A stretch of 64,000 bases of DNA from Herpetosiphon aurantiacus DSM 785. GTDB taxonomy: Bacteria; Chloroflexota; Chloroflexia; Chloroflexales; Herpetosiphonaceae. Below the pieces are notes generated by a model, which saw only the letters and a list, made by a program, of their open reading frames with translations, made no database searches and was not told the DNA's origin. The stretch is taken from NCBI GenBank assembly GCA_000018565.1, contig CP000875.1, positions 2,557,199 to 2,621,198 of the forward strand, written 5' to 3'. Positions 5,476 through 44,976 of this stretch are shown here, in pieces (within the stretch, counting starts at the first letter, position 1; every line of letters starts with the position of its first letter). Both the position numbers and the translations under genes were made by a program.

Positions 5476-5506
5476 CACGAGATCCTCATCTAATAGGCTG
5501 AAATGT

Positions 5507-16009: not shown

Positions 16010-16030
16010 TATTGATATATTGTATCAATA
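16010..16030. promoter_or_regulatory. Zur-type operator 1
   Basis: Perfect inverted repeat TATTGATA (16010-16017) and TATCAATA (16023-16030) around a 5-bp centre, 33 bp before the COG0523 GTPase start. The 8+5+8 layout and sequence match three further sites in the window, all beside zinc-type genes, which makes a Zur box the most economical reading. Confidence 0.75.
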
Positions 16031-16063: not shown

Positions 16064-17257
16064 ATGGCGAAACTTCCCGTTACTGTGCTTTCTGGGTTTC
16101 TTGGTGCCGGTAAGACAACCGTCTTGAATCATGTCCTAACCAATCGTGCAGGCCTCCGCGTCGCCGTGATTGTAAACGATATGAGTGAGATCAATATTGA
16201 TGCCCAATTGATCACCGAAGGGACGGCCCAGCTCAGTCGCACGAAGGAAGCCTTGGTCGAACTGTCAAACGGCTGTATTTGTTGTACCCTACGCGATGAT
16301 CTGCTACGCGAAGTCGCTCGTTTGGCACGCGATGGGCGCTTCGATTATCTGTTGATTGAATCAACTGGCATTTCAGAGCCATTACCGGTCGCGATGACCT
16401 TTAGCTTTGAGACCCCTGATGGGATTGACCGCCTCGTCGATATCGCTCAGTTGGATACCATGGTAACGGTTGTTGATGCCCATACATGGCTTGCTGACTA
16501 TCGTGCTGGTCAGGCGTTGCATACGTTGGATATGGGAATCAGTCCTGCTGATCACCGCACCATTGCCGATCTGCTTATTGACCAAGTTGAGTTTGCCAAT
16601 GTTATTGTGCTGAACAAGATCGATTTAGTTGATACGCGGCAACTTCATGAACTCGAAGGGGTCTTGCATACCTTGAACCCGGATGCGCGAGTTCTGCATG
16701 CAACCAATGGTGTCATTGAACCAACAGCGATTCTCCATACCGGATTATTTGACATGGAGCGTGCGCAACAATCCGCTGGCTGGATCAAAGAGCTGAATGG
16801 TGAGCATACCCCCGAAACCGAAGCGTATGGAATTGGCAGTGTTGTGTTTCGCGCACGGCGACCGTTTCATCCGCAACGGCTATTGAGCGTGCTCACCGGA
16901 CCAGAACTCCAACCCGTCCTGCGTTCGAAAGGGGTCTTGTGGCTTGCGTCACGCCATGATCACGGGTTGCGGTGGTCGTTAGCGGGGAAGATTGCCCGGG
17001 TTTCAGACAGTGGTGCGTGGCTTGCCGCGACTCCTGACGATACGTGGCCACAAAACGATCAAGTAGGCATATACATCGAACGGTATTGGCAAGAACCGTT
17101 TGGTGATCGCCGCCAAGAGTTAGTGTTTATTGGCATTGATATGCCACATGAGCAATTGGTCGCAAAACTCGAACACGCGTTATTAACCGACCAAGAACTT
17201 GCGGCTGGCCCGCCGCTGTGGAAGCGATTTGAAGATCTGTTTCCGCATTTTAACTGA
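16064..17257 (+). CDS. COG0523/CobW-family GTPase, putative zinc metallochaperone (397 aa)
   Basis: A G3E-family GTPase. The P-loop is 'LSGFLGAGKTTVLNH', the metal-binding CxCC motif is 'NGCICCTLRDDLL', Walker B/switch is 'YLLIESTGIS', and base specificity is 'VLNKIDL'. The C-terminal CobW domain ('YGIGSVVFRARRPFHPQRL', 'LWLASRHDHGLRWSLAG') is complete. The length of nearly 400 residues and the C-terminal architecture match the ZigA/YciC-like branch, which hands zinc to client proteins when zinc is scarce, rather than CobW of cobalamin synthesis. AAGGAG precedes the ATG. A Zur-type palindrome lies just upstream. A second, shorter family member is encoded at 24994-26016. The client protein is not identifiable. 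Confidence 0.9.
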   Translation: MAKLPVTVLSGFLGAGKTTVLNHVLTNRAGLRVAVIVNDMSEINIDAQLITEGTAQLSRTKEALVELSNGCICCTLRDDLLREVARLARDGRFDYLLIESTGISEPLPVAMTFSFETPDGIDRLVDIAQLDTMVTVVDAHTWLADYRAGQALHTLDMGISPADHRTIADLLIDQVEFANVIVLNKIDLVDTRQLHELEGVLHTLNPDARVLHATNGVIEPTAILHTGLFDMERAQQSAGWIKELNGEHTPETEAYGIGSVVFRARRPFHPQRLLSVLTGPELQPVLRSKGVLWLASRHDHGLRWSLAGKIARVSDSGAWLAATPDDTWPQNDQVGIYIERYWQEPFGDRRQELVFIGIDMPHEQLVAKLEHALLTDQELAAGPPLWKRFEDLFPHFN

Positions 17258-18410: not shown

Positions 18411-18431
18411 TAATGATACAAAATATCATTA
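18411..18431. promoter_or_regulatory. Zur-type operator 2
   Basis: Perfect inverted repeat TAATGATA (18411-18418) and TATCATTA (18424-18431) around CAAAA, 74 bp before the start of the zinc-binding lipoprotein gene. Same 8+5+8 form as the sites at 16010, 26309 and 26835. Confidence 0.8.
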
Positions 18432-18505: not shown

Positions 18506-19483
18506 ATGACATGGTTAAAACGTGGGTTCTTGGTGATTATCAGTTTGCTGTGTATGGCATGTGGTCAATCGACGGCCACGATCGTTCCCCCACCGATGGA
18601 TACCAACACCAGCAATAAACCAGTGATTATTGCGACAACAACGCAGATTGAAGATATTTTGAGTGTGATTGGCGGTGATCGGATCAGCGTGGTGGGCTTG
18701 GTTCCACGCAATGGTGACCCACACGAGTTTGAACCAACTCCAGCCGATGTCCAGCGGGTTGCGACCGCACAAGCCGTTTTTATGAATGGGGCAGGCTTTG
18801 AAGGATGGATCGATGAATTAATTCGGAACGCTGGCGGTCAGCGGCCCGTGGTTGATCTCTCGGTTGGTATTCCGCTTGGCACGATTGCGAGCGGGTTTGC
18901 AGAAAGTGGCGAAACCGATCCGCACATTTGGATGAACCCCCAACACATGCTCATTATGGTGGATACGATGGTGACCAACCTTATTCAGCTTGATCCGGCT
19001 GGCGCAACGACCTTCAATGCGAATGCAACAGCCTATAAACAGGAGTTAATCGCCCTTGATGCCTATGCCGAAAAAGAACTTGCGGCCATTCCGGCCAATC
19101 GCCGCAAGTTGGTAACGGCCCATGATGCGATGGGGTATTTTGCCGCTCGCTATAACTTTGACATTGTTGGCGCGGTGATTCCGAGTGCGACGACCGAGGC
19201 GGCAGAAACCTCCGCGCAGGATCTTGCAACCCTCATTGATGCGATCAAGGCCGCAGGGGTGCCCGTTATCTTTGCCGAAGTGTCGAATAACCCGAAGTTT
19301 ATTGAACAAGTTGCCCGCGAAGCGCATGTGCGTGTCGATACCTTATACGTTGATTCGCTTGGTGAAAAAGGCTCAGATGCAGGTACGTACCTTGATTTTT
19401 TTCGTACTGACGTGCAAAAAATTGTTCAAGCCCTTAAATTCGTACTGACGTGCAAAAAATTGTTCAAGCCCTTAAATAGGTGA
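18506..19483 (+). CDS. znuA: Zinc/manganese ABC importer, substrate-binding lipoprotein
   Basis: A cluster A-I (ZnuA/PsaA-type) solute-binding protein of 325 residues. The lipoprotein signal is 'FLVIISLLCMACGQS', with Cys about residue 19 as anchor. Metal ligands are seen as 'NGDPHEFEPTPADV' and 'ETDPHIWMNPQHM', a histidine in 'LVTAHDAMGYF', and a C-terminal Asp region ('YVDSLGEKGSDAGTYLDFF'). It lacks the long His-rich loop common in zinc-specific members, so manganese cannot be excluded on sequence alone; the Zur-type box favours zinc. The last 14 residues are abnormal: a 38-bp tandem duplication (19401-19476) shifted the frame past the natural end at '..KIVQALK'. It is first in an operon with the ATPase and permease. 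Confidence 0.9.
   Translation: MTWLKRGFLVIISLLCMACGQSTATIVPPPMDTNTSNKPVIIATTTQIEDILSVIGGDRISVVGLVPRNGDPHEFEPTPADVQRVATAQAVFMNGAGFEGWIDELIRNAGGQRPVVDLSVGIPLGTIASGFAESGETDPHIWMNPQHMLIMVDTMVTNLIQLDPAGATTFNANATAYKQELIALDAYAEKELAAIPANRRKLVTAHDAMGYFAARYNFDIVGAVIPSATTEAAETSAQDLATLIDAIKAAGVPVIFAEVSNNPKFIEQVAREAHVRVDTLYVDSLGEKGSDAGTYLDFFRTDVQKIVQALKFVLTCKKLFKPLNR
19401..19476 (+). repeat. 38-bp perfect tandem duplication at the end of znuA
   Basis: Bases 19401-19438 are repeated exactly at 19439-19476. Because 38 is not a multiple of three, the second copy is read in another frame and adds 'FVLTCKKLFKPLNR' to the protein. Removing one copy gives a normal end (CTT AAA TAG). The exact identity shows a very recent event. 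Confidence 0.92.
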
Positions 19484-19536
19484 TTTCAGGAAGCAACCGG
19501 CAATTCGTCAGTACGGCGGATTGGGAAAGGTGGCGT

Positions 19537-20313
19537 ATGGCGATCGTTGATCGCTCCCCATGGGCCGTGGCTGGGGAGCATGTGCAGATAGGCTATGGCA
19601 GCGGGACGCGGGTGGCTCTTGATGCTCCCAGTATTCGTTTGAAGCGCGGAACACGGACGGCCTTGATTGGCCCAAATGGGGCTGGCAAATCGACCCTGCT
19701 TAAAGCGATTGTCGGGTTACAACCCCTCACCTCTGGATCAATGACTGTGCTTGGATACCCTGTTGGTACATGTCAGCAGCGAATTGCCTATGTCCCACAA
19801 CGGCGTGATGTTGATTGGCGTTTTCCAATTACGGTGAACGATGTTGCCCTGATGGGGCGTGATGTTCATCGGCGGTGGCCGCGTCGTCCACAGCGCACCG
19901 ATTACGCGATTGTTCGGGAGGCCCTTGAAATGGTGGGCATGAACGCATGGGCACACCATCCGATTGCGGCACTTTCTGGTGGGCAACAACAACGGGTCTT
20001 TTTAGCGCGAGCATTGGCACAGCACGCTGAACTGCTCCTCCTTGATGAGCCATTTGTTGGGGTTGATACCGCGACCGAGGCGATCATTCATAGGGTGATT
20101 ACACGCCTGATTAGCACAGGGTGTACGGTGGTGGTTGCAACCCATGATTTAGCCAGTATCCAAACGCATTTCGATGCTGCAGTGCTCCTCCAACAGCGGA
20201 TTATTGCGAACGGAACACCGTTGGATGTACTCCAACCATCGTTGTTAGCTGAGGCCTATGGCGGCCCTTTAGCCCTGTTTGTGGGAAAGGACTCCCATGG
20301 ATTGGCTGATTGA
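19537..20313 (+). CDS. znuC: Zinc/manganese ABC importer, ATP-binding subunit
   Basis: About 258 residues with all ABC motifs: Walker A 'LIGPNGAGKSTLLKAIVG', Q-loop 'AYVPQRRDVDWRFPITVNDV' (typical of metal importers), signature 'ALSGGQQQRVFLARALAQ', Walker B 'LLLLDEPFVGVD' and H-loop 'VVVATHDLAS'. It should energise the permease encoded next and receive metal from the lipoprotein upstream. The preferred start is ATG 19537 after GAAAGGTGG; an upstream GTG at 19480 touches the znuA stop. The 3' end overlaps the permease start by 17 bp. Confidence 0.93.
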   Translation: MAIVDRSPWAVAGEHVQIGYGSGTRVALDAPSIRLKRGTRTALIGPNGAGKSTLLKAIVGLQPLTSGSMTVLGYPVGTCQQRIAYVPQRRDVDWRFPITVNDVALMGRDVHRRWPRRPQRTDYAIVREALEMVGMNAWAHHPIAALSGGQQQRVFLARALAQHAELLLLDEPFVGVDTATEAIIHRVITRLISTGCTVVVATHDLASIQTHFDAAVLLQQRIIANGTPLDVLQPSLLAEAYGGPLALFVGKDSHGLAD

Positions 20314-21211
20314 GCCATTGCGCTATACCTTTTTCCTCCGAGGGATGGTGGTTGGCATGCTGATGGGGCTAACCTGTGGGGTGCTTGGGTGCTTTGTGGT
20401 GCTTCGTGGGATGGCCTTTATTGGCGATGCCCTTGCCCATGCCGTTTTGCCAGGGGTTGTCCTGGCGTATATGGGCGGTATCAGTATGGTTTTGGGGGCA
20501 CTTGGGGCGGGCTTGTTCGCAGCACTGCTCATCAGCTTAATTAGCCGGACTGACTATATTCGGGAAGATACGGCCATCGGGATTGTCTTTACCGGGGCCT
20601 TTGCCCTTGGGATTGTGCTGCTTAGTCGGATGCGCGGCTATGCCCGTGATCTCACGCACTTTCTGTTTGGCAATATTCTTGGCATTGCCCCGTCCGATCT
20701 TCTTCTTACCGGTCTTGTTACAGCCAGTGTCCTGGGTGCGATTGGCCTTTGGTATCGGCCACTGATGATTATGACCTTTGACCCGACCCATGCCAAAGCC
20801 ATTGGGTTGCGGCTTGGCCGCTGGCATGCAGGGTTGATGGTCTTGCTCGCGTTAACCATTGTATCGGGAATTCAGGCCGTTGGTGTCGTACTCGTCGCGG
20901 CCCTGCTCGTTACACCTGCGGCAACAGCGCGCCTGCTCACCAATCGGTTACCGACCATGATTGGGTTAGCCGCCCTTTTCGGAAGTAGCTCGGCCATTCT
21001 TGGATTGTATGCCTCGTATATGCTGAGTATTGCCTCGGGCGGGGTGGTTGTGTTGGCCAGTACGGGGGTATTTGCGGTTGTCTTCCTGCTAGCCCCGACG
21101 CATGGCATTGTGTCTCGTCGAATTCGGCAATGGTGGCCACGATTCACCCAAACCCCGGATGTGATAACCAATGAAGCAAACTCCGAAACCGGTATTGATC
21201 CGGGGGATTGA
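20297..21211 (+). CDS. znuB: Zinc/manganese ABC importer, permease subunit
   Basis: An ABC-3 family permease of about 304 residues with eight or nine hydrophobic helices. Characteristic text includes 'LMGLTCGVLGCFVVLRGMAF', 'IGDALAHAVLPGVVLAYM' and 'LVAALLVTPAATARLLTNRL'. Start at ATG 20297 follows GGAAAGGAC and lies inside the ATPase gene. The gene completes the znuACB-type operon that begins behind Zur-type operator 2. Thirteen bases after its stop begins the [2Fe-2S] protein gene that has been split by an IS3-type element, so that gene was probably the fourth member of the operon. Confidence 0.92.
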   Translation: MDWLIEPLRYTFFLRGMVVGMLMGLTCGVLGCFVVLRGMAFIGDALAHAVLPGVVLAYMGGISMVLGALGAGLFAALLISLISRTDYIREDTAIGIVFTGAFALGIVLLSRMRGYARDLTHFLFGNILGIAPSDLLLTGLVTASVLGAIGLWYRPLMIMTFDPTHAKAIGLRLGRWHAGLMVLLALTIVSGIQAVGVVLVAALLVTPAATARLLTNRLPTMIGLAALFGSSSAILGLYASYMLSIASGGVVVLASTGVFAVVFLLAPTHGIVSRRIRQWWPRFTQTPDVITNEANSETGIDPGD

Positions 21212-21409: not shown

Positions 21410-21826
21410 ATGGCCAGCAAAAAAACAACGCCCGACCAATCGACCCATGACCCCGAAGTGCGGCCCAAAGCGGCTCGTACCCACTGGAGTGCCCGCGACC
21501 GTCTGCGCATTCTGGCCGCTGCCGATGCGTGCGCCCCCGGCGAACTTGGTGCCTTGATGCGCCGCGAGGGGATTTACTCCTCGCACCTCGCCCGCTGGCG
21601 ACGACAACGCGCCGAGGGCGAACTCGCCGCACTCACGCCCAAACGCAAGGCCGCACCCACGCCCGAAGCCCAGCGCCAGACCGCCGAACTGGCTCGCCTT
21701 CGCCGCGAAAACCAGCGGCTTCAGGCCAAATTGGCCCAAGCCGAGGTGATCATCGATGTGCAAAAAAAGCTTGCAACCCTGTTGGGGATCACGCTCCCAG
21801 CGCCGCCGACCGACGCGCAGGATTAA
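21410..21826 (+). CDS. IS3-family OrfA (helix-turn-helix)
   Basis: About 138 residues from ATG 21410, after AAGGAG. The N-terminal helix-turn-helix ('RTHWSARDRLRILAAADAC', 'EGIYSSHLARWRRQ') binds the element ends. A leucine-zipper-like coil ('RQTAELARLRRENQRLQAKL') allows dimerisation. It ends next to orfB, which lies in another frame, so the active OrfAB transposase is presumably made by programmed frameshifting near 21760-21826, where an A6 run (GTGCAAAAAAGC, about 21760-21765) is a candidate slip site. Confidence 0.88.
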   Translation: MASKKTTPDQSTHDPEVRPKAARTHWSARDRLRILAAADACAPGELGALMRREGIYSSHLARWRRQRAEGELAALTPKRKAAPTPEAQRQTAELARLRRENQRLQAKLAQAEVIIDVQKKLATLLGITLPAPPTDAQD

Positions 21827-21834
21827 TCATCGCC

Positions 21835-22839
21835 GTGGCTGATCTAGCTCCCACGGTGGGCATTGCCGCTGCCTGTCGGGTACTCGGTGTCCCGCGCAGC
21901 GCCGTCTATCGTGCGGCCCCGCCTGCTCCCGCAGCGGTTCCGCGTCGTCGGCCTGCCCGTGCGCTCACGCCCAATGAGGTCGCCCACATTCGCACGGTGC
22001 TCAACAGTGACCGCTTTGCCGACTGCACGCCGCGCCAGATCTACGCCACCTTGCTTGATGAGGGAACCTACCTGTGCCATTGGCGCACGATGTACCGGAT
22101 CTTGGCCGCCCATCGCGAAGTCCGGGAACGCCGCAACCAGCTGCGGCATCCGACCTATGCTGCGCCGGAATTGTTGGCCACGGGGCCAAACCAGCTCTGG
22201 AGTTGGGATATCACGAAGTTCAAAGGGCCAACCACGTGGTCGTATTTCTATGCGTATGTGATTTTGGATGTGTTCAGCCGCTGCATTGTGGGCTGGATGG
22301 TGATGGAGCGCGAATCGGCGGCGTTGGCCGAACAGTGTATCGCCGAAACCTATCACCGCGAGGGCATTCAGCCGAACCAACGCACCCTGCACGCCGACAA
22401 TGGCAGTGCCATGACCGCCAAGCCGGTGGCCCAATTGCTCGCCGATTTAGGCGTGACCAAAACCCATAGTCGTCCGCATGTCTCGAACGACAATCCGTAC
22501 TCGGAAGCCCAGTTCAAGACGACCAAATATCGGCCTGATTTTCCCGATCGGTTTGGCAGTCTTATCGATGCGCGGGCGTGGATGCGGGCGTTTGTGCAGT
22601 GGTACAACCACGACCATTGCCACAGTGGGATTGGCTTGCTGCCGCCAGCGGTGGTGCATCATGGGCAGGCCAGCGCCATGACAACGGCGCGGCAGCAGGT
22701 GCTGGCGACGGCCTATGCGGCCCACCCCGAACGCTTTGTGCGGGGAACACCACGCCCACCGCGTGTGCCGCAGGCCGTGTGGATTAACCGCCCAGCTGGG
22801 CCAGCTGATCCGTCGATCACAGCGGCGTTGCGCGAATAG
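21835..22839 (+). CDS. IS3-family OrfB transposase (DDE integrase core)
   Basis: About 334 residues. It carries the HTH_21 region ('VADLAPTVGIAAACRVLGVP'), then the rve catalytic core with Asp in 'LWSWDITKFKG', Asp in 'LHADNGSAMT' and Glu in 'DNPYSEAQFKTTKY', and the C-terminal 'WYNHDHCHSGIGLLPPA'. All three catalytic residues are present. The start is approximate: GTG 21835 if made alone, otherwise joined to OrfA by frameshift. The open frame extends farther upstream but that text is antiphase to OrfA and not family-like. Confidence 0.9.
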   Translation: MADLAPTVGIAAACRVLGVPRSAVYRAAPPAPAAVPRRRPARALTPNEVAHIRTVLNSDRFADCTPRQIYATLLDEGTYLCHWRTMYRILAAHREVRERRNQLRHPTYAAPELLATGPNQLWSWDITKFKGPTTWSYFYAYVILDVFSRCIVGWMVMERESAALAEQCIAETYHREGIQPNQRTLHADNGSAMTAKPVAQLLADLGVTKTHSRPHVSNDNPYSEAQFKTTKYRPDFPDRFGSLIDARAWMRAFVQWYNHDHCHSGIGLLPPAVVHHGQASAMTTARQQVLATAYAAHPERFVRGTPRPPRVPQAVWINRPAGPADPSITAALRE

Positions 22840-23994: not shown

Positions 23995-24324
23995 TTAGGC
24001 GCTTACCACTGTGACAGGGCCATGGTCATCGCAGTGATCGCCGTGGCGATGATGCAACCGTCCCTCATATAGATAATCAACATGATCGCCATGGGGAATC
24101 ATCTCATGACCACAATCATCATGGGTGCATGCACAGGCAACAGGAGCGCAGGCTGCGGGATTGGTGGCACTAATCGCGATGACGTGATCATCATAGTGGC
24201 CCTCATGTTCGGCGTGTAAATGGCCATTATGGACATAATCAATGTGATCATCATGGTGGATGCGGGTGTGGCCGCAGTGCGCACTATGGATATGCGCATG
24301 AGGTTCGTGGATTTGATGGTCCAT
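23995..24324 (-). CDS. Histidine-rich metal-binding protein with internal duplication (109 aa)
   Basis: About a quarter of residues are histidine. Two related repeats are visible: 'CGHTRIHHDDHIDYVHNGHL' then 'HAEHEGHYDDH' (residues ~17-47), and 'CGHEMIPHGDHVDYLYEGRL' then 'HHRHGDHCDDH' (~71-101), separated by an alanine/cysteine-rich linker 'AACAPVACAC'. Similar short proteins near metal transporters are thought to buffer zinc or nickel. AGGGAGG precedes the ATG at 24324. No signal peptide is seen, so it is probably cytoplasmic. No Zur-type palindrome was found upstream, which would fit a buffer made when zinc is ample, but that is inference. Confidence 0.82.
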   Translation of the reverse strand: MDHQIHEPHAHIHSAHCGHTRIHHDDHIDYVHNGHLHAEHEGHYDDHVIAISATNPAACAPVACACTHDDCGHEMIPHGDHVDYLYEGRLHHRHGDHCDDHGPVTVVSA

Positions 24325-24526: not shown

Positions 24527-24997
24527 TCACTGAACGACGCATTCATGCTGACATTGTTTGCATAAGCCGAAGAATTCAAGGACATGGCCTTGAATGGCAA
24601 AATCGGTGCCTGCGATCATGCGCTCAAGACTCTGATCAATGGTACATGCTTGCACAATACGTGTCATCCCACAACCGATGCACAGCAGGTGATGATGGTG
24701 TCCTGGTCCAATACGGATATAGGCATGCTGACGGGGATCGGAATGAAGTCGCGTGATCCAGCCTGCTCCACGCAGCCATTCGATCATGCGATAACTCGTG
24801 GCACGACTGCTCCGTGCAAGGTCAGCGACGAGATCTTCAGCCGTAAATGGAACGGACCGAGCAGCGATCCATGCCACGATAGCCCGACGTGGTGGAGTCC
24901 ATCGCAGATGCGCCTGACGAAAGCTTTGTTCCACGCCAACCAGCCAGTGTTCCGCCACACCCGTTGTTAGGTGATGCTGCATGAACATGTCCCTCAT
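24527..24997 (-). CDS. zur: Fur-family regulator, probable Zur
   Basis: About 156 residues. The winged-helix region is 'WTPPRRAIVAWIAARSVPFTAEDLVADL', with 'SRATSYRMIEWLRGAGW' as recognition helix. The dimerisation domain carries metal ligands: 'GPGHHHHLLCIGCG' and a C-terminal 'CKQCQHEC', the two CxxC pairs of the structural zinc site. ATG 24997 overlaps the stop of the upstream COG0523 gene (ATGA); alternative starts at 24988 and 24982 follow GAGGGA and are equally possible. Gene order (FmdB-like, COG0523, Fur-type) and the Zur-type palindrome before the operon argue for a zinc sensor with autoregulation rather than an iron or peroxide sensor. It should bind the four palindromes listed here. 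Confidence 0.85.
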   Translation of the reverse strand: MRDMFMQHHLTTGVAEHWLVGVEQSFRQAHLRWTPPRRAIVAWIAARSVPFTAEDLVADLARSSRATSYRMIEWLRGAGWITRLHSDPRQHAYIRIGPGHHHHLLCIGCGMTRIVQACTIDQSLERMIAGTDFAIQGHVLEFFGLCKQCQHECVVQ

Positions 24998-26016
24998 GGA
25001 GCCTGATCTGGGTGCGACCATGCATTGGCGCTTGGGCGTTGATCGCACAGTTCGTGATCACCTGATGCCAAACAGGCATGAAATTGCTGGCGTAGGGCCA
25101 CGACATCAAAACGCTTGCGCTGGCCAATCACCACGAGTTGGCTGTAGGGGCTGGTTAGCCCCCAAGGTGTACTCAGCTGCACACTCGCGCGGTTGCCCAC
25201 AACCTGAACAATCGCTTGGCGGTCCGGTGCTTCGGCTAAAGCGACAATCCCTTTGGCGCGAAAAATGGAAGGTGGTAAGTGGTGCAAGGCATGTTGCAGG
25301 CGGCGCAGATGAAATGGTTGCGTGGTTTGATAGTGCCAGGTTTGCCATTCGTGATCGTGATGATGCGTATGCGGTTCAGGGACTTCCTGATTCGGCAGCA
25401 ACGCAATACGATAGATGCCGCTTCCCAGAAGCACCTGAACAGGAACATCGCCGTACTCCGCAGCCACAATGCGTGCACGAGGTACGATGGACTGAATCCA
25501 CGTCATCACCGCGTGAATGTGGAGAGGAGGAACTAAATCGATTTTATTGATCACCACCATATCGGCAGCAGCAATTTGATCAACGACCTGCATTACCTGT
25601 TCTCGTTGTTCGTAAATGCGCTCAGCATCAACGACCGCCACAATGGCATCAAGGGTAATGTGCGGGCGTAACGCGGGCGAACGGAAGGTCCATGCGATCG
25701 CCAGAGGGTCAGAGATACCACTCGCTTCCACAATAATAGCATCAGGCCGCTCTGCACGATCAAGCAATGCGAGCGTCGCAGTCAATAAATCTTCGCGAAT
25801 CGTACAACAAATACAGCCATTCGCCAGATTTACAATGTCGTTGCGTTCAATACCAACGACCAACTGCGCATCGATATTAATCGCGCCAAAATCGTTGACG
25901 AGCACGGCGATTTTGCGACCATGGGCCTCACGCAACAAGCGATTCAAGACGGTTGTTTTCCCTGCACCTAAAAAGCCAGTCAAAATCGTCATCGGAATGG
26001 CTGGTGCTTCGCTCAT
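24994..26016 (-). CDS. COG0523/CobW-family GTPase, putative zinc metallochaperone (340 aa)
   Basis: Second G3E GTPase in the window. P-loop 'LTGFLGAGKTTVLNRL', CxCC motif 'NGCICCTIREDLL', 'IIVEASGISDP' and 'VINKIDLV' are intact. A histidine run, 'PHTHHHDHEWQTWHY', precedes the C-terminal domain and can bind metal. Start is ATG 26016 after AAGGAG. It is the middle gene of a three-gene operon (FmdB-like, this GTPase, Fur-type regulator), with its stop overlapping the regulator start. It resembles the zinc-starvation induced chaperones found next to zur in many bacteria. It is shorter than the 397-residue paralogue at 16064 and may serve a different client. Confidence 0.9.
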   Translation of the reverse strand: MSEAPAIPMTILTGFLGAGKTTVLNRLLREAHGRKIAVLVNDFGAINIDAQLVVGIERNDIVNLANGCICCTIREDLLTATLALLDRAERPDAIIVEASGISDPLAIAWTFRSPALRPHITLDAIVAVVDAERIYEQREQVMQVVDQIAAADMVVINKIDLVPPLHIHAVMTWIQSIVPRARIVAAEYGDVPVQVLLGSGIYRIALLPNQEVPEPHTHHHDHEWQTWHYQTTQPFHLRRLQHALHHLPPSIFRAKGIVALAEAPDRQAIVQVVGNRASVQLSTPWGLTSPYSQLVVIGQRKRFDVVALRQQFHACLASGDHELCDQRPSANAWSHPDQAP

Positions 26017-26054
26017 AGAAACTCCTTCAAAACAGCGCGTCATACTGCTCCTCG

Positions 26055-26285
26055 CTACGGATAAGGCCGACAACACGCACATGATGGGTGATGATCCTTG
26101 TCTCCCGTGGATGGTGTGCGGAGTTCTGGTGACGGTTGATTGCGCCAGAGATGGAAGGACGTGATGTCGCGCACACCAAACTCATGACAGACCGGGCAAA
26201 CGAACGGCATATCGGCCTCACGCTGTGGGCGTAATTCCTCAATTTCGATCGCGCATTGCGGACAGCTATAGACATAGAGGGGCAT
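26055..26285 (-). CDS. FmdB-family zinc-ribbon protein with extra C-terminal cysteines (76 aa)
   Basis: The N-terminus 'MPLYVYSCPQCAIEIEELRP' followed by 'FVCPVCHEFGVRDI' is the FmdB-type zinc ribbon (two CxxC pairs). Unusually, the C-terminus adds 'DHHPSCACCRPYP', a second potential metal site. The gene starts at 26285, 24 bp after the Zur-type palindrome at 26309-26329, so it is the first gene of the autoregulated operon. The ribosome site is weak. Function is unproven; a small zinc-binding partner of the GTPase is plausible. Confidence 0.75.
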   Translation of the reverse strand: MPLYVYSCPQCAIEIEELRPQREADMPFVCPVCHEFGVRDITSFHLWRNQPSPELRTPSTGDKDHHPSCACCRPYP

Positions 26286-26308
26286 AGGAAACCTTATACT
26301 GGACACTT

Positions 26309-26329
26309 TATTGATACAATATATCATTA
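26309..26329. promoter_or_regulatory. Zur-type operator 3
   Basis: TATTGATA (26309-26316), CAATA, TATCATTA (26322-26329): one mismatch between arms. It lies 24 bp before the FmdB-like gene on the minus strand and would control the operon that contains the Fur-family gene itself. Confidence 0.8.
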
Positions 26330-26834: not shown

Positions 26835-26855
26835 TAATGATACTATGTATCATCT
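26835..26855. promoter_or_regulatory. Zur-type operator 4
   Basis: TAATGATA (26835-26842), CTATG, TATCATCT (26848-26855): the outer two bases of the right arm are changed, the core TGATA-N5-TATCA is perfect. It lies 65 bp before the flavoprotein start on the plus strand. Confidence 0.68.
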
Positions 26856-26919
26856 AATAAGAATACGTTGGTGGTTGGTCACTCTCTCGCCACCAGCGGA
26901 CACCAGTGAGAACCGTGTG

Positions 26920-28041
26920 ATGCAGAGCTATGATGTCCTTGTGGTTGGGGCTGGCGCGGCAGGCGTTGGCATCGGCTGCGCACTCCAAGAACTGACCCTT
27001 ACTCCCAACCAGTGGCTGATCATTGATCGCACAGCGGTCGGGAGTTCGTTTCGCCATTGGCCATGTGAAATGCGCCTGATTACCCCATCGTTCCCTGGCA
27101 ATGACTTTGGTGTCATTGATCTTAATGCCGTCACCCCGCACACATCACCCGCCCTGAGCCTAGCGGCCGAGCACCCGAGCGGCCCGGACTACGCACGCTA
27201 TCTGTGCAGCCTTGCCGAGCATTTCGAGCTACCCATCCGCACTGATGTCTCGGTGACGGCGGTTGAACCGGCTGATGATGGGTTCATTGTCCGCACCACC
27301 AGCGAGCCGCTCCACGCACGGCTGGTCATCTGGGCGGCGGGCGAGTTTCAGTACCCGCGCACAACGGGCTTTTGCGGTGCGGAGCAGTGTCTCCTGGCGA
27401 GCACCGTCAGCTCTTGGAACCATATTATGGGGACTGATCCCATCATCATCGGCGGTTATGAAAGTGGGATGGATGCCGCCATTCATCTCGCCCGGCGCGG
27501 CATGGCGGTACGCGTGATCGATGCCGGTACGCCCTGGGATACCATTGACACGGATCCCAGCCGCACGCTGTCGCCTTATACCCAAGAGCGACTGCGTGCG
27601 TTGCCCAACGGTGCGCTCACCTTGATTGGCGAGACGCGCGTCGAGCGCGTCGTGACCGTTGCTGAGGGCTATTACGTATTCACCAATCACCATCCTGTGC
27701 CTTTGTTCTCAGCAATGGCACCCATTCTCGCAACAGGGTTTGCGGGCAGCCTGTCTTCGCCTGCTATCGCCCCCTTGTTTGCTCGACGAGACGATGGATA
27801 TGTAGTCCTTACCACGGAGGATGAATCCACCATCACGCCAGGACTGTTCGTCGTCGGGCCGAATGTACGTCACGATGATCTCATTTTCTGCTTTATCTAC
27901 AAGTTCCGTCAGCGCTTTGCTGTGGTGGCGCGGGCGATTGGGCAGCGCCTGGGACTACCAACCGATGGGCTGGACTGGTACCGCGAGCGCGGCATGTTTC
28001 TCGATGATCTGTCCTGCTGCGATACCACGTGTGCCTGCTAG
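26920..28041 (+). CDS. FAD-dependent oxidoreductase (flavoprotein monooxygenase/thioredoxin-reductase fold)
   Basis: About 373 residues from ATG 26920. The FAD-binding Rossmann motif is 'YDVLVVGAGAAGVGIG' at the N-terminus, with 'LIIDRTAVGSSFRHWP' (the F/W-containing loop of YpdA/monooxygenase-like proteins). A second dinucleotide motif is degenerate, 'PIIIGGYESGMDAAIHLARR', and 'FVVGPNVRHDDLIFCFIYKF' ends the fold. The C-terminus is cysteine-rich, 'LDDLSCCDTTCAC', a possible metal or redox site. The preceding frame is open for 86 codons but is not family-like and contains operator 4. Close spacing (14 bp) to the FeoB-like gene and a shared Zur-type box suggest that the two act together. The substrate is unknown. 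Confidence 0.8.
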   Translation: MQSYDVLVVGAGAAGVGIGCALQELTLTPNQWLIIDRTAVGSSFRHWPCEMRLITPSFPGNDFGVIDLNAVTPHTSPALSLAAEHPSGPDYARYLCSLAEHFELPIRTDVSVTAVEPADDGFIVRTTSEPLHARLVIWAAGEFQYPRTTGFCGAEQCLLASTVSSWNHIMGTDPIIIGGYESGMDAAIHLARRGMAVRVIDAGTPWDTIDTDPSRTLSPYTQERLRALPNGALTLIGETRVERVVTVAEGYYVFTNHHPVPLFSAMAPILATGFAGSLSSPAIAPLFARRDDGYVVLTTEDESTITPGLFVVGPNVRHDDLIFCFIYKFRQRFAVVARAIGQRLGLPTDGLDWYRERGMFLDDLSCCDTTCAC

Positions 28042-28055
28042 AAGAGGACCATACG

Positions 28056-29687
28056 ATGACCACAGCCGCCATTGTCGTGATTGGCAAAGAGAATGTCGGT
28101 AAATCGCTGGTGATCCGTGCATTGACCGGCGCTCCGGTCACCAGCATGAACATGCGCGGATCAACCGTTGCCTGCGAGACGTATATCGGCACGCAACACA
28201 CCTTTATCGATACACCCGGCATCCATCGCGCCACCGATTTGGCACAGACTGCCGAGGTGTTGGCGCAGGTGACGGCGAGTGATGCCGTCTTGCTGGTCGC
28301 CCAGGCCACGCATGCCGATGATGATCTCCGCGACCTCCTGCCATTGGCAGCTGGTAAGCGTGGCGTGGTGGCCCTCACCTTCTGGGACAAGTTGCCAGAC
28401 CGACCGCAGGCCATGCGCATGGTCGAGCGCCTACGTGTGGCCACGGGGATGGCGTGTATTCCCCTCGATGCACGCGCGATCCCGGCGGTGGATGCCACGC
28501 GCTTGGTCACGGCGCTCACCAATCCACCGCCCCTCGTCCCGCTGCCGAGCGGGTTTCGTACGGGCTGGCGGATTGACGCACCCGAACAGCTGCTGGGACA
28601 CCGACATCTGGGACCCGCACTGGGGCTGCTGCTCCTGCTCCTGCCTGCACTACTCGCCGTTTGGTGTGCCACGCGTCTCGCCGGACTCGCCGATCCACTG
28701 ATCCAGCAGGCGCTCGGCCCAGTGGTCACCTGGGGCACGACACTGCCCTCTCTGCTGGGCAGCACCTTGACGGGTCGCTACGGCATCCTCACCATGGGCG
28801 TGTTGCTGGTGGTCTGGGCACTGCCGACGATTCTTATCTACGCCCTGCTGCTGGCCATGTATAAAACCTCTGGACTATTGGAACGCATCACCAGTGCCGT
28901 CCATCCACTGACGCGCCCAATCGGGCTGAGCGGACGCGATCTCGTGCGGGTCGTCATGGGGTTCGGCTGCAACGTGCCGGCGATTATCAACACCCGAGCG
29001 TGTTCGACCTGCTCCCGAGCAACCTGCATGTCGATCATTGCCTTTGGATCAGCCTGTTCATATCAGTTCAGCGCGACGCTGGCCGTCTTTGCCGCCGCCG
29101 GTCGCTCCCAGCTCATCTGGCCCTATCTGGCCTATCTCACCATGACCACCTTGATCTACGCCCGGCTGATTGCGCCGCCCGCCGCCCGCGCGGCCCACAA
29201 CCCATTGGTGCTGGAGCAGCGCGTGTTTTTGCAATGGCCGCAGCCACAGGCGGTTTGGGCCGAGGTTCGCAGTACGCTCGGGCAGTTCGCCCGGCAAGCC
29301 GTGCCAATCTTCGTGCTGATCACGCTGGTGGCGAGCGTGCTAGAGTGGCTCGGCGCTCTCGCAGTAGCGGAACAGGCGCTGACACCCCTGATGAGCCTGT
29401 TTAACCTGCCAGCCCATACGGCACTTGCCGTGGTAATGGGCAGCATCCGCAAGGATGGCCTGGTGTTGTTTGCTGAAGGCGGCCTGGCGCAGCAACTGTC
29501 GTCCATCCAACTGCTAACGGGTGTCTACTTGGCCGGCGTGCTGCTTCCCTGCTTCGTGACGGTGCTGACGATTGCCCGCGAGCAGTCTTGGCGCTTTGCT
29601 GTCCGCCTAGTCCTGCGCCAGGCCGCCGCTGCCGCTGTTTTTGCCCTGCTGCTGGCCTGGGTTGGTCATTGGATGCATGGCGCATAA
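28056..29687 (+). CDS. FeoB-like GTPase/permease, possible zinc-regulated metal transporter
   Basis: About 543 residues from ATG 28056 after AAGAGGACC. Residues 1-165 form a small GTPase domain: G1 'VIGKENVGKSLVIRAL', G2-like 'GSTVACET', G3 'FIDTPGI'. The G4 motif is not NxxD but 'LTFWDKLPD', so base recognition is altered. The membrane part has the FeoB Gate repeats: 'MGFGCNVPAIINTRACSTCS' and later 'GSIRKDGLVLFAEGGLAQQL', with about eight helices. The first Gate is followed by an unusual cysteine cluster (CSTCSRATC). Canonical FeoB is longer and is partnered by FeoA, which is absent here. With a Zur-type box upstream, a metal other than ferrous iron is plausible. It is cotranscribed with the flavoprotein. 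Confidence 0.85.
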   Translation: MTTAAIVVIGKENVGKSLVIRALTGAPVTSMNMRGSTVACETYIGTQHTFIDTPGIHRATDLAQTAEVLAQVTASDAVLLVAQATHADDDLRDLLPLAAGKRGVVALTFWDKLPDRPQAMRMVERLRVATGMACIPLDARAIPAVDATRLVTALTNPPPLVPLPSGFRTGWRIDAPEQLLGHRHLGPALGLLLLLLPALLAVWCATRLAGLADPLIQQALGPVVTWGTTLPSLLGSTLTGRYGILTMGVLLVVWALPTILIYALLLAMYKTSGLLERITSAVHPLTRPIGLSGRDLVRVVMGFGCNVPAIINTRACSTCSRATCMSIIAFGSACSYQFSATLAVFAAAGRSQLIWPYLAYLTMTTLIYARLIAPPAARAAHNPLVLEQRVFLQWPQPQAVWAEVRSTLGQFARQAVPIFVLITLVASVLEWLGALAVAEQALTPLMSLFNLPAHTALAVVMGSIRKDGLVLFAEGGLAQQLSSIQLLTGVYLAGVLLPCFVTVLTIAREQSWRFAVRLVLRQAAAAAVFALLLAWVGHWMHGA

Positions 29688-40009: not shown

Positions 40010-41788
40010 CTAAACGTGCGCATCAACACCAAGCAATAGTTTTTGATTGCTCGGCTCAGCTTGCCAAAGTTCACGCATAGCTGGCGATGTTTCGAGTAGA
40101 TCATTTAGTGGGCCTTGGGCTGCAATCTGACCAGCGTCCATAACAATTACCCAATCGGCAAGCTGAAGGACGGCGCAGCGATGCGAAACAACCAGCCATG
40201 TGGTTGGGTGCTGACGTAGGCCTTGCCACAGTTGTTGCTCAGTGGTCACATCTAAGGCACTCGAACAATCATCAACGATCATCAACTCGCTCGAACGCAC
40301 TAACATTCGCGCTAAAGCTGCTCGTTGTAGTTGACCGCCCGATAAACGCACGCCCCGTGAACCAAGTTCGGTCGCTAGGCCTGCGGGCATATGCTGTAGA
40401 TCTGGCGCTAATACACTCGTTTCAATCGCCTGTTGTAATTCATTAGCGCTCAAATTCAGCCCTAGGCTCAAATTATCGTGCAGCGAGCTGCTCAATAAGC
40501 GCGGCACTTGCGCGGTATAAGCACAATTGGGGGGAATGAGTTGCTCTGCAGGTTGTTCGATCGGCTGATTATTCCAGAGAATCGTGCCATGGGCTGGCAC
40601 TAAACCAAGCAAGGCCCGCAATACGGTGGTTTTGCCTGAGCCAACTTTGCCCGTAACTACCACAAATTGGCCACGCTCAAGCCTGAAATCAATCGCTTTG
40701 ATACCAGCTTGGCTGTTGGGGTAGCAATAGCTTAAGTTGCTTATATCAAGCCGTTGCAATGCTGGCAAGGCCTTGGCTGGGCTAAAATCCAGCTGTTGAT
40801 CGGGCGTAATCGAGCCATGTTCAACCAAAGCGCTTGGTGCTGCATCCTTTAATAGCTGTTGCATGCGCTGGAACGAAACTCCAGCCTGTTTGTAGTGGGT
40901 CAACAACAAGCCAATCAGTGAGGGCAAACGGGTAACCATTGAAAAATAATAGACAAACAGCGAGAAATCACCAACACTAAAATTGCCAGTACGCATTGCC
41001 TCGCCTGCTAGCAACAAAATCATGCCCGTGCCAAGGCTAATTGTGTTGGCGTAAACGGAGCTAAGCAAGGCCGTAAATGCCCGATCTTTGACCATAAACT
41101 GGCGACGTTGGTCGTTGAGTTGTTGAAAATGGCCGATTACCGCAGTTTCAGCATTCGCCACTTTGATCGCTTGGGTTGCCCCAAACATTTCGCCCAGAAA
41201 ATCGGAAACCTTGCTCGTTGCGGCGCGGCTGGCCTGACGATAGCGCTGAATCCGCTGATTGGCAACGGTAAAGGCCGAAACCACGATCAGCAATGGAACC
41301 AAAATAACCAAGGTTACCTGTTGATTGATTTGTAACAGGATTCCTAGCGCAATCAGGCTGAACAGCACATTACCAAATACATCAAGCAGCCAAATGCTAA
41401 AGGTCAGAATTTCCTCAACATCATCGCGAAAATTGTTGATCGCCGCACTTGATGAGGTATACAAGGCTTGGGCACCTGGCTGAGCCAAAATCCGCTTCAG
41501 CATATTTTTGCGCAACAAGCCTGCAATGTTATATTGCACCGAGATATCCATCGCGGTTCCAAGTTGGGTCAATAAACGTCGGCTAATCTCAGTGGTGATC
41601 AAGAGGGCTAAGAGCGTCCAGATGCCAAATACCGCTGGAGCCGCGCCGCTGAGTTGGTCGAAAATTGCCCGATTGATCAGGCCAGGCAGCAAGGGCGAGA
41701 TAAAAAATATGCTCCAAATCAAGACCCCAAAGCCATAGATTGCTGGCCGATAGCGGATCAAACGCAGCATTAATTGCCAAGCTTTCAT
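40010..41788 (-). CDS. ABC exporter half-transporter, subunit B (degenerate catalytic site)
   Basis: A 592-residue fusion of six transmembrane helices (1-310) and an ATPase domain. Walker A is 'VVTGKVGSGKTTVLRALLG', the signature is canonical 'VRLSGGQLQRAALARML', and Walker B is 'LMIVDDCSSALD', in which the catalytic Glu is replaced by Asp. H-loop 'WLVVSHRCAV' is present. Paired with the next gene, whose Walker B is canonical but whose signature is altered, this makes an asymmetric heterodimer with one active ATP site, like many peptide exporters. The start overlaps the stop of subunit A by four bases (ATGA). It is last in the NRPS operon and presumably exports the peptide. Confidence 0.9.
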   Translation of the reverse strand: MKAWQLMLRLIRYRPAIYGFGVLIWSIFFISPLLPGLINRAIFDQLSGAAPAVFGIWTLLALLITTEISRRLLTQLGTAMDISVQYNIAGLLRKNMLKRILAQPGAQALYTSSSAAINNFRDDVEEILTFSIWLLDVFGNVLFSLIALGILLQINQQVTLVILVPLLIVVSAFTVANQRIQRYRQASRAATSKVSDFLGEMFGATQAIKVANAETAVIGHFQQLNDQRRQFMVKDRAFTALLSSVYANTISLGTGMILLLAGEAMRTGNFSVGDFSLFVYYFSMVTRLPSLIGLLLTHYKQAGVSFQRMQQLLKDAAPSALVEHGSITPDQQLDFSPAKALPALQRLDISNLSYCYPNSQAGIKAIDFRLERGQFVVVTGKVGSGKTTVLRALLGLVPAHGTILWNNQPIEQPAEQLIPPNCAYTAQVPRLLSSSLHDNLSLGLNLSANELQQAIETSVLAPDLQHMPAGLATELGSRGVRLSGGQLQRAALARMLVRSSELMIVDDCSSALDVTTEQQLWQGLRQHPTTWLVVSHRCAVLQLADWVIVMDAGQIAAQGPLNDLLETSPAMRELWQAEPSNQKLLLGVDAHV

Positions 41789-43524
41789 GCGAACACCTCG
41801 GTTATGCCATGTTGCAACAGTTGGCTATACTGCGATTGAGGGTTTTGTAACAGTGCTTGGCGTGGGCCAAACTCACGAATTGTGCCAGCATCGAGCACTA
41901 AAATCGCATCGGCGCGTTGTAAGGTTGCCAACCGATGGGCAATGATAATTGCGGTGCGACCTGCCAACAGCCGATCTAAGGCGCGTTCGACAATCGCCTC
42001 ACTCGCTGGGTCAAGCCGTGATGAAGCCTCATCGAGGATAATTAATCGTGGGTCTTTTAGCAAAATTCGCGCAAATGCCAAGAGCTGAGCCTGACCCGCC
42101 GAAAGCCCATTTGGCTTGATCAGCGTATCGAGGCCATGTTCAAGGCTGTTAAGCCAGTTGGTGAGGCCGAGGGTTTCTAAGGCAGCCAGCAATTGCTGAT
42201 CAGCAATTCTGTGATCGAAAAAGCTCAGGTTATCGCGAACGCTGGCATGAAATAGTTGCACATCTTGGCTCACGAAGCCAATCGAGCGGCGCAAATCGGC
42301 TAAACTGGTGTTGCGAATATCGATGCCGCCTAAGCGAATTGTACCTTGATGCGGATCATACAAGCGTAACAAAAGCCGAATCAGGCTCGTTTTGCCGCTA
42401 CCAGTCCGTCCCAATACGCCTAAAATCTGGTGGGCGGGTAATTCAAACGAAAGCGCTCGCAAGACTGGCGTATCGGTGTTATAGCCAAATGAAACTTGCT
42501 CAAACCGCAGATCAAGTGCTTGTTGCGGGATTGTCGGGCCAGTGCCATCAACGATTGCTGGTCGCTGCTGGCGCAATTCATCGATGCGCAAAATGCCGGC
42601 ACTGGCTTTTTGAAACTCCTGAATTTGGCGTAAAATTTGCTCGAGCGGCGTGGTGAGCAAGCCAATATAGGCTGTGATGATATACACGCCACCAATTGTC
42701 GTTTGTTGCTGTTGATACAGGTAGATACCAATGCCCAAACCCAAACCACTGGCGATAATAAACATCGATTGGCCAGCGTTATAGAGCCAAGCGGTGGCTA
42801 GCTCAGCTTTACGAGTTTTGCGATAGAGCACGAGCATTTGGCGATAGAGCTGTTGCATCACATAATTGCGTGCGCCGCTTGAGCGAATATCTTCGGTTGC
42901 CGCCAAGCGTTCTTCTAAAAAGCCAAACAGCTCAGCACTCGCTTGGCGTGATTCGCCCCAGAGTGGTACGCCAACCCGTTGCATTTTTTGCAACAGGCTG
43001 ATCGCCGCTGCCACACAGACGATTAGCCCAACTGCAACCCGCCAATCTTCCAAGGCCAAGGCCACAATAATCCCCAGCAGCAACAAGCCATTGCCCAGCA
43101 ATTGAATAATAAACTGGGTAAAAAAGTTGGCTAAGGTCGTAACATCGCCGTCGATGCGCTCGATTAGCTCGCCTGGTGTTTTGTGATTGTGAAAACTACT
43201 ATCCAAGTGCAGACAATGGGCGGTCAAATCGGCACGTAAGGCATTCGTTGCGGTCCAGCCAATTTGCTCGCTCAGATAAACCGCACCGAGCGCTAAAAGT
43301 TGTTGTCCAAAGGCGATACCCATAAAGAGTAATGCCAGTTTGGTCAGTTGCTCCAAAGGTTGAGCAGCGAGCGCCGAATCTAAAAATCGGCGCATAATTT
43401 GCGGATTAAGCAATTGCAAGCCAATGCCCAGAAAAACCAAGCATCCTAAGCCGAGCACCCGCCCACGCTGTGGCTTGAGATAGGTTGCCAGTAAACGACG
43501 ATAACGCGCTAGCGGAAACTGCAT
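41785..43524 (-). CDS. ABC exporter half-transporter, subunit A
   Basis: About 579 residues from ATG 43524 after AAAGGAATAAGC; the upstream ATG at 43581 lies inside the aminotransferase gene. Six transmembrane helices are followed by an ATPase with Walker A 'GVLGRTGSGKTSLIRLLLR', Walker B 'RLIILDEASSRLD' (catalytic Glu present) and H-loop 'IIIAHRLATL'. Its signature is 'NGLSAGQAQLLAFARI', LSAGQ instead of LSGGQ. It forms the partner of the following half-transporter. Position directly after the aminotransferase within the NRPS operon suggests product export or self-resistance. Confidence 0.9.
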   Translation of the reverse strand: MQFPLARYRRLLATYLKPQRGRVLGLGCLVFLGIGLQLLNPQIMRRFLDSALAAQPLEQLTKLALLFMGIAFGQQLLALGAVYLSEQIGWTATNALRADLTAHCLHLDSSFHNHKTPGELIERIDGDVTTLANFFTQFIIQLLGNGLLLLGIIVALALEDWRVAVGLIVCVAAAISLLQKMQRVGVPLWGESRQASAELFGFLEERLAATEDIRSSGARNYVMQQLYRQMLVLYRKTRKAELATAWLYNAGQSMFIIASGLGLGIGIYLYQQQQTTIGGVYIITAYIGLLTTPLEQILRQIQEFQKASAGILRIDELRQQRPAIVDGTGPTIPQQALDLRFEQVSFGYNTDTPVLRALSFELPAHQILGVLGRTGSGKTSLIRLLLRLYDPHQGTIRLGGIDIRNTSLADLRRSIGFVSQDVQLFHASVRDNLSFFDHRIADQQLLAALETLGLTNWLNSLEHGLDTLIKPNGLSAGQAQLLAFARILLKDPRLIILDEASSRLDPASEAIVERALDRLLAGRTAIIIAHRLATLQRADAILVLDAGTIREFGPRQALLQNPQSQYSQLLQHGITEVFA

Positions 43525-43526
43525 GC

Positions 43527-44816
43527 TTATTCCTTTGTACTTGCCAAATAGGTTTGAATCGCCTGTTGCAGAATGGCACAACCTTGAGCGAGCAAGGCTG
43601 AATCGATGGTTAATGGCGGCATGATTTTCAGCACACTATCGCCACGACCAACCCGCTCGATAATTAACCCTTGGGCAAAACATTCTTGCATAATCGTTTT
43701 CGAAGCGGTTGGGCCAAGTTCGGCAAAATCAATCCCCCAAACCAAGCCTTTACCACGAATTGCCAAGCGCGGATCGAGCGGCACTATCTGGGTTTGCAAA
43801 AAGCTTTCGAGTTGCTGGGCAAGTGCCTGAATTGAGCTACTGAAGGCATCAGTTTGCCAATAATCGAGCGCAGCAGTTGCCCCTACAAATGCCAATTGAT
43901 TACCACGAAATGTGCCAGTATGCTCGGCTGGCTGCCATTGATCATATTCAGCCTTGATCAAGACCAGCGCCATGGGTAAGCCATAACCACTAATCGACTT
44001 GGAAAGCGTGACTAAATCGGGCACAATTCCAGCCGCCTCAAACGAGAAAAAGCTGCCAGTCCGACCACAACCAACCTGAATATCATCGCAGATCAGCACA
44101 ATGCCATGGCGATCACAGAGGTGTCGCAATCCTTGCAGCCATTCGGTTGGGGCAACGTAAATGCCGCCTTCGGCCTGAATTGTCTCTAGGATGATCGCCG
44201 CTGGTTTATCGAAGCCAGAATGGGTGTCGGTCAAGACGGTTTCGAGATAGTGCAACGAGTCGATTGCCGCTAATGGGCCACGAGGATAGGGCAAAAAGTT
44301 GGTGTGAGCCAGTGGCACACCAGCGGCAGCACGATGCTCGGCATTGCCCGTGACTGCTAACCCACCCAGCGACAAGCCATGATAGCCACCCATAAAACTG
44401 ATCACGCTCGTGCGACCCGTGACTTTTCGCGCCAGTTTTAGCGCCGCCTCGACCGCATTTGCACCAGTTGGCCCACAAAATTGAACTTTGTAGGGCAAGT
44501 TGCGTGGCGCTAAAATAACCTGATTAAACCGCTCCAAAAAGCTGCGTTTGGCACTAGTATACATATCCAAGCCATGGATAATTTGGTCGGATTCGAGGTA
44601 GTCGAGCAGGGCTTGTTTGATCTGCGGGTTATTATGGCCGTAGTTTAGCGCTCCCGCCCCAGCAAAGAAATCGATATAGGCACGTTGTTGCTCGTTATAC
44701 AGCAGCGAGCCTTGGGCTTGGCGAAACACCGTTGGAAACGAACGGCAATAGGAGCGCACATTGGATTCGTATTGGTCGAACGCGGTGGTATTGATCGTGG
44801 TTATTTCACGTTGCAT
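43527..44816 (-). CDS. Class III aminotransferase, diaminobutyrate--2-oxoglutarate type
   Basis: A 429-residue PLP enzyme close to EctB/Dat: 'YIDFFAGAGALNYGHNNPQI', 'KVQFCGPTGANAVEAALKLA', 'ISFMGGYHGLSLGGLAVTGN', 'AAIILETIQAEGGIYVAPTE', 'LICDDIQVGCGRTGSFFSFE' and the PLP lysine in 'VTLSKSISGYGLPMALVLI'. Members convert L-aspartate 4-semialdehyde to L-2,4-diaminobutyrate. No ectoine synthase or acetyltransferase follows, so the likely role is precursor supply for the NRPS, as in polymyxin-type clusters. The gene follows the TE-containing synthetase by 160 bp, has an AAGGAATATC site, and is followed after 2 bp by the exporter. Confidence 0.9.
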   Translation of the reverse strand: MQREITTINTTAFDQYESNVRSYCRSFPTVFRQAQGSLLYNEQQRAYIDFFAGAGALNYGHNNPQIKQALLDYLESDQIIHGLDMYTSAKRSFLERFNQVILAPRNLPYKVQFCGPTGANAVEAALKLARKVTGRTSVISFMGGYHGLSLGGLAVTGNAEHRAAAGVPLAHTNFLPYPRGPLAAIDSLHYLETVLTDTHSGFDKPAAIILETIQAEGGIYVAPTEWLQGLRHLCDRHGIVLICDDIQVGCGRTGSFFSFEAAGIVPDLVTLSKSISGYGLPMALVLIKAEYDQWQPAEHTGTFRGNQLAFVGATAALDYWQTDAFSSSIQALAQQLESFLQTQIVPLDPRLAIRGKGLVWGIDFAELGPTASKTIMQECFAQGLIIERVGRGDSVLKIMPPLTIDSALLAQGCAILQQAIQTYLASTKE

Positions 44817-44976
44817 TGATGATATTCCTTGTATAAGGTTATTGGCTATGGTTGATTTGGTTTAACAACTAAGAGCTATAGAAGATTGCTTGAACATACC
44901 AACAATTGTGCCGATAGCCCATAGCCATTATTGCTCTGCGTTTCTGCGTTAAAACCTCGATTGCGCATTTCCGACC

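Follow-up and report, generated by a model that had tools for sequence, protein, structure and literature searches.

The flavoprotein and FeoB-like gene pair

We describe here a pair of adjacent genes in a 64,000-nucleotide stretch of DNA (the 'window') from Herpetosiphon aurantiacus DSM 785, whose genome comprises 6,785,430 bases in three contigs. The first gene encodes a CzcO-like flavoprotein and the second, which begins after a gap of 17 bp, a protein that resembles FeoB, usually treated as an iron importer. The FeoB-like permease belongs to a family apart from ordinary FeoB, and the pair probably belongs, judging by its operator, to a zinc-starvation (Zur-type) regulon. The original prediction, made from the sequence alone, had placed a flavoprotein with a CCDTTCAC tail and a FeoB-like gene behind a Zur-type box, and all of these are present:

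26838–26852: palindromic Zur-type operator, TGATACTATGTATCA, 67 bp 5' of the flavoprotein ATG
26920 (ATG) to 28041 (stop), plus strand: CzcO-like flavin adenine dinucleotide (FAD) flavoprotein, 373 amino acids, tail CCDTTCAC (Pyr_redox_3, E 1e-91)
28059 (ATG) to 29687 (stop), plus strand: FeoB-like G-protein/Gate permease, 542 amino acids (Pfam domains, alignment, tree and fold)
28968–29027, plus strand: clade-specific cysteine segment of the permease, from the codon for C304 (in GFGCNVPA) to that for C323, including C315-x2-C318-x-R320

A clade distinct from canonical FeoB

The FeoB-like protein matches FeoB_N (PF02421) above the cut-off (E 2.3e-9) and contains two Gate repeats (PF07670; E 9.8e-18). 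The G domain occupies residues 1–158 and the permease domain residues 184–541. Against the FeoB equivalog model, TIGR00437, it scores 121.7 bits, below the cut-off of 315.65. No other Gate protein was found in the Herpetosiphon genome. Three departures from FeoB had been predicted, and each holds: FeoA is matched just once in the genome, 2.5 Mb from the pair; the G4 motif reads TFWD; and three additional cysteines, C315, C318 and C323, follow the GFGCNVPA sequence. Among the FeoA matches of 20 genomes that carry the FeoB-like gene, likewise, none lies near it.

Relatives were sought in 84,980 species genomes with a five-row alignment as query. This returned 21 at 34–54% identity, followed by a gap and then by canonical FeoBs at approximately 30% or less. 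In a tree built from the permease region only, with the cysteine motif excluded, a branch of length 3.3 with Shimodaira–Hasegawa-like approximate likelihood ratio test (SH-aLRT) support of 100 divides 25 relatives from 54 canonical FeoBs. A separate clade was to count in favour of the original prediction, and this is one. Its 25 members span seven phyla, haloarchaea among them.

Several features set the clade apart. C315, C318 and R320 are present in all 25 members and in none of the 54 canonical FeoBs, whereas C304, C333 and C498 are common to both. Position 107, the G4 asparagine of canonical FeoBs (46 of 49), is threonine in 23 and serine in one of the 24 members that possess a G domain. 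FeoB_N is matched by 24 of the 25 and Gate by all. FeoB_C (PF07664) is matched by none (25/25 canonical controls), and the motif EL[PQ]xYxxP is likewise missing from the clade (0/25, versus 33/54 canonical FeoBs); the core region of FeoB with a motif of the ELPxYxxP type is a proposed Fe2+-binding site (PMC11920956). Absence of the guanine nucleotide dissociation inhibitor (GDI) domain was considered as a further clade trait and dropped, FeoB_Cyto being matched by just seven of 25 canonical controls.

At least nine of 21 carrier genomes encode, in addition, a canonical FeoB above the cut-off, so the clade is not simply the iron FeoB of those organisms. Its members are variously named in databases as 'nucleoside recognition domain-containing protein', 'FeoB small GTPase domain-containing protein' and 'ferrous iron transporter B'. 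One (genome G271:C28, locus L046; permease L041:1486-2640, minus strand) is without a G domain, which shows that this domain can be lost; it is flanked by COG0523 GTPase genes, and a near-palindrome, TGCAAATCGTTTGCA, lies upstream of it.

Gene neighbourhoods and distribution

The flavoprotein is encoded within 5.5 kb at 50 of 55 clade loci, and within 400 bases at 38, versus none of 59 canonical FeoB loci drawn from the same scan, some of them on short stretches. A COG0523 GTPase gene occurs within 5.5 kb at 30 of the 55, versus one of the 59. Loci of the clade itself supplied part of the training data for the profiles used in these searches, and the 55 loci are rich in haloarchaea and Paenibacillaceae, so the counts are not independent events. 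Zinc-gene neighbours, which were likewise to count in favour of the prediction, are seen both here and in the zinc-sparing islands described below.

The pair recurs in seven phyla. Among 400 Chloroflexota genomes, the clade occurs in four, the flavoprotein in five and both in three (hypergeometric p 4e-6), a count that leaves out one weak match (L042) of the ordinary FeoB kind by its motifs. Elsewhere, the clade is carried by 14 of 199 Paenibacillaceae and by two of 292 cyanobacteria; in the haloarchaeal class it occurs in 25 of 242 genomes. Plasmids also carry the family, with 498 records from Klebsiella and 20 from Escherichia; one such plasmid, CP031369, has been described as a virulence plasmid (PMC6780558), and a Zur-regulated cluster on pLVPK was noted earlier (PMC2770081). 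Genes for calcineurin-like phosphoesterases recur near the pair (L046:1444-2343, by eye; L047:3449-4342, Metallophos_2).

The flavoprotein itself aligns over its full length, Cys tail included, with a Staphylococcus aureus protein of known structure (PDB 3d1c; E 2.9e-73). A longer open reading frame (ORF) that starts with GTG at 26662 is probably not real, since the alignment with this homologue begins at residue 1 and extends to the final one. Of 50 flavoproteins that neighbour FeoB-like clade genes, 45 have a tail of the form CCx(2-4)Cx(0-1)C.

The operator in Herpetosiphon

Three further copies of the operator occur in the window, and they accompany the following genes:

26312–26326: second copy of the operator, heading a minus-strand zinc-ribbon/COG0523/Fur-family operon
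26055–26286, minus strand: small FmdB-type zinc-ribbon protein, likely ATG at 26286 (TIGR02605, E 2e-7; Zn_ribbon_8)
24994–26017 (start approximate), minus strand: COG0523/CobW-family GTPase (cobW, E 4.8e-54; CobW_C, E 7.6e-18)
24527–25048, minus strand: Fur-family regulator (FUR, E 1.4e-14)
23995–24324, minus strand: His-rich protein of 109 amino acids, last gene of the operon, from its sequence a possible metal-binding protein (no match in Pfam/TIGR family scans)
16013–16027: operator copy before a COG0523 GTPase gene
16064–17257, plus strand: COG0523 GTPase of the type that adjoins the pair in other genomes
18414–18428: operator copy before a ZnuACB-type ATP-binding cassette (ABC) importer
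18506–21211, plus strand: ZnuA-, ZnuC- and ZnuB-like genes, named from their ORF sequences; homologues recur at relatives' loci

The four minus-strand genes diverge from the flavoprotein/FeoB-like pair. The exact pattern TGATANNNNNTATCA is found at four sites in the window, where approximately 0.2 are expected in 64 kb, although the pattern was derived from the window itself. Genome-wide (6.79 Mb) it occurs at 20 places, versus four for the reversed control pattern. All four window sites lie 25–80 bp before the start codons of zinc-type genes. Independent support comes from a site outside the window that precedes a further COG0523 gene (C1:737912), and from tandem boxes on the same contig, C1 (L238:4092-4106 and 4154-4168), upstream of a gene (L238:3499-4090, minus strand) for a protein with the motif QCWCWGxDVxxxxGNLLLEyG; homologues of this protein are encoded near the pair in other genomes (L043, L044, L046, L052, L053 and L063). 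The QCWCWG family has no Pfam match and is possibly an undescribed zinc-regulon protein. The genome contains three Fur-family genes, and the one 1.8 kb from the pair (24527–25048) is likely, by position and context, to encode the zinc sensor, Zur.

Such control bears on whether the permease is an importer at all. The name CzcO derives from an association with the exporter CzcD, and the system could be a zinc sensor, an exporter or an accessory protein instead. We think this quite improbable: Zur-type operators serve genes that are on at low zinc, whereas expression of exporters normally rises when zinc is in excess.

Probable zinc regulons in other lineages

The pair occurs together with Zur boxes in other organisms, a point that the original prediction had put up for checking. 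The Bacillus Zur consensus is found upstream of it at nine of 15 Bacillota loci, with 14–18 of 20 positions matching (p <= 0.007 versus shuffles). The Fur consensus reaches p < 0.05 at three, two of these overlapping the Zur site, and on these counts a Fur-box reading for Bacillota was ruled out. At the Leptolyngbya and Geitlerinema loci (L048 and L050), the boxes fit Zur and Fur alike. Zur boxes of the lineage type precede the pair in three gammaproteobacteria, and boxes of the Zur consensus occur at the Pseudoalteromonas and Erwinia loci. In Pantoea soli, an exact gamma-type box, TGTTATGTTATAACA, lies 24 bp 5' of the flavoprotein gene and also before zigA; gamma-type boxes in this organism precede the flavoprotein gene, zigA and dksA, with eight matches versus 0.06 expected.

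That the protein is an ordinary ferrous iron importer, located among zinc genes by chance, is very improbable. It has the FeoB_N and Gate domains of one, and the Herpetosiphon genome offers no other Gate protein for the task. But it falls outside the canonical clade, with no FeoA nearby, no FeoB_C and a changed G4, and the Bacillota boxes are those of Zur rather than Fur. Tree, domain content and gene context together led us to reject this identity. The picture against which the original prediction was to be judged, a protein inside ordinary FeoB beside iron genes and Fur boxes, is not what we find; the Bacillota operators fit Zur far better.

The genes around the pair tell a similar story. 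On the Pantoea soli plasmid, the depositors' annotation begins with dihydroorotase, thrS, carbonate dehydratase, folE2, dksA, a GTP-binding protein, a repressor and cysS, and continues with the flavoprotein, the FeoB-like protein, a hypothetical protein, 6-carboxytetrahydropterin synthase, zigA and a repressor; the pair sits, that is, within an island of zinc-sparing genes. In Erwinia sp. S63, genes for ThrS, gamma-carbonic anhydrase, FolE2, a Fur-family protein and CysS adjoin the pair. HisI accompanies it in a Verrucomicrobia bin, and CysS, COG0523, MerC and a Fur-family gene do so in an Opitutales bin. Taken together, these islands contain genes for ThrS, CysS, HisI, FolE2, gamma-carbonic anhydrase, DksA, PyrC and QueD, the types of back-up paralogues of zinc enzymes reported in Zur regulons (PMC2770081); the Pantoea soli island holds most of that set.

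Zinc-sparing neighbours admit another explanation, the main rival to a zinc importer. The permease could be induced by zinc starvation to import a substitute metal (Fe2+, Mn2+ or Co2+) for the regulon's zinc-sparing enzymes, such as an iron-type gamma-carbonic anhydrase or FolE2. FeoB ancestry and the adjoining paralogues are what it would lead one to expect, and gamma-carbonic anhydrases can use iron (PMC2770081). We consider it unlikely, though worth keeping in view: the clade has lost FeoB_C and the core motif proposed to bind Fe2+ (PMC11920956) and has gained extra thiolates, and at some loci (L064, L066, L067 and those of haloarchaea, all on partly annotated stretches) the neighbours are COG0523 or znu genes, with no sparing enzymes recognised.

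Predicted fold

An AlphaFold2 model built from 25 sequences (predicted local distance difference test score, pLDDT, 84.7; predicted template modelling score, pTM, 0.81) replaced a weaker one built from five (pLDDT 74). In the model, the fold of residues 1–169 corresponds to NFeoB structures, with Z scores reaching 18.9, and that of residues 194–536 to concentrative nucleoside transporters (CNTs; Z 16.9, 295 residues, 4.6 Å). The predicted helix breaks, at 301–304, 315–319, 331–333 and 495–498, coincide with C304, the C315/C318 motif, C333 and C498. In the CNT fold the substrate site is formed by broken helices, and with cysteines at these breaks a thiol-lined substrate site in the permease is plausible.

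Resemblance to nucleoside transporters raises the question of whether the permease moves a zinc–ligand complex, or another small molecule, which the flavoprotein modifies or releases. The flavoprotein's membership of the monooxygenase/reductase superfamily would suit such a role. We give this idea a small chance: among the genes checked, no ligand-synthesis gene recurs by the pair, and the conserved pore thiols favour direct binding of metal.

A candidate zinc uptake system

The best explanation, in our view, and a fairly probable one, is that the FeoB-like protein and the flavoprotein form an inner-membrane zinc uptake system induced by zinc starvation. We infer the transport, its direction, the metal, and the roles of GTP and the flavoprotein from sequence and gene context. 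The FeoB-like protein would import zinc, or a zinc complex, across the inner membrane by way of its Gate/CNT fold, and the fused G domain would gate or couple transport. Relative to FeoB, the clade has lost FeoB_C and ELPxYxxP and gained the invariant Cys-x2-Cys-x-Arg in a helix break beside conserved FeoB cysteines; the pore would thereby offer Zn2+ a well-suited site rich in thiols. For the CzcO-like flavoprotein, the simplest proposal is that it maintains the reduced state of the pore or of its own Cys tail; it might instead pass zinc through the tail. The COG0523 GTPase, often encoded alongside, may then distribute the imported zinc.

Several observations weigh against this interpretation. 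Zur regulons include proteins other than zinc importers. Approximately half of the carriers are without a canonical FeoB above the cut-off, and in these a role in iron uptake is possible. A palindrome scan of four haloarchaeal loci found no Zur-like box. The permease without a G domain (L041/L046) suggests that coupling to GTP may not be essential. Five of the 50 neighbouring flavoproteins do not have the complete Cys tail. The flavoprotein also occurs without the permease, in two Chloroflexota genomes and in S. aureus (3d1c).

Should the protein prove to import zinc, a set of entries in the databases would be wrongly annotated, metal selectivity within the FeoB fold could be tested by residue swaps at C315 and C318, and the flavoprotein would become linked to metal uptake. 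The family's span of bacteria and archaea, and its presence on the Klebsiella plasmids, could also make it relevant to zinc-limited conditions in hosts. More tentatively, and at somewhat less than even odds, we suggest that the system represents a third class of zinc importer in prokaryotes, phylogenetically widespread and additional to the ABC (Znu) and ZIP types. Its permease, of CNT fold and fused to a GTPase, would select zinc through a pore CxxC and would depend on a dedicated thiol-tailed flavoprotein for reduction or for hand-over of zinc.

Other features of the window

Several transposase or integrase genes flank the zinc genes (532–7580 and 21529–22839), and the FeoB-like gene was not found in five other genomes of the genus; the zinc-gene region is therefore likely to be a horizontally acquired island. 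A second ZnuA-like substrate-binding protein is encoded at 62756–63712 (minus strand); no exact match to the box accompanies it. A large non-ribosomal peptide synthetase (NRPS) cluster (43527–60927, minus strand) includes, by eye, a diaminobutyrate-type aminotransferase gene, and ABC exporter genes lie beyond it (40010–43581); its product is conceivably a metallophore.

Comparison with known systems

No zinc-linked FeoB clade was found described in the open papers searched, subscription papers and supplements being outside reach. To this extent the arrangement is new, as had been proposed, but the pair is by no means confined to the Herpetosiphon genome. In text searches of the main articles, figures and supplements being outside their scope, neither the FeoB-like permease nor the flavoprotein is mentioned in PMC2770081, nor FeoB or the flavoprotein in the Zur review PMC6103462. 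The Zur-regulated COG0523 (YciC/ZigA/ZagA) clusters of PMC2770081 nonetheless share many neighbours with the pair: znu, zur, FolE2, CysS, ThrS, HisI, gamma-carbonic anhydrase, DksA, PyrC and QueD.

Like the FeoB iron importer, the clade protein has an N-terminal G domain, with a predicted fold close to that of NFeoB (Z 18.9), fused to two Gate repeats, and it conserves the GFGCNVPA cysteine, C333 and C498. Unlike FeoB, it has no FeoB_C, ELPxYxxP or FeoA neighbour and stands on a separate branch, with threonine or serine in G4, an invariant CxxCxR, a flavoprotein partner and Zur-type control. The S. aureus protein 3d1c (COG2072-type, Pyr_redox_3) is a full-length homologue of the flavoprotein with the same CC-x3-C-x-C tail, but it is titled just a putative monooxygenase, whereas the Herpetosiphon gene directly precedes the FeoB-like gene. 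ZnuABC and ZIP/ZupT, finally, share control by zinc starvation but differ in fold and energy coupling: the former is driven by an ABC ATPase and the latter is a ZIP carrier, both unrelated to a G-protein-fused permease of the CNT fold.
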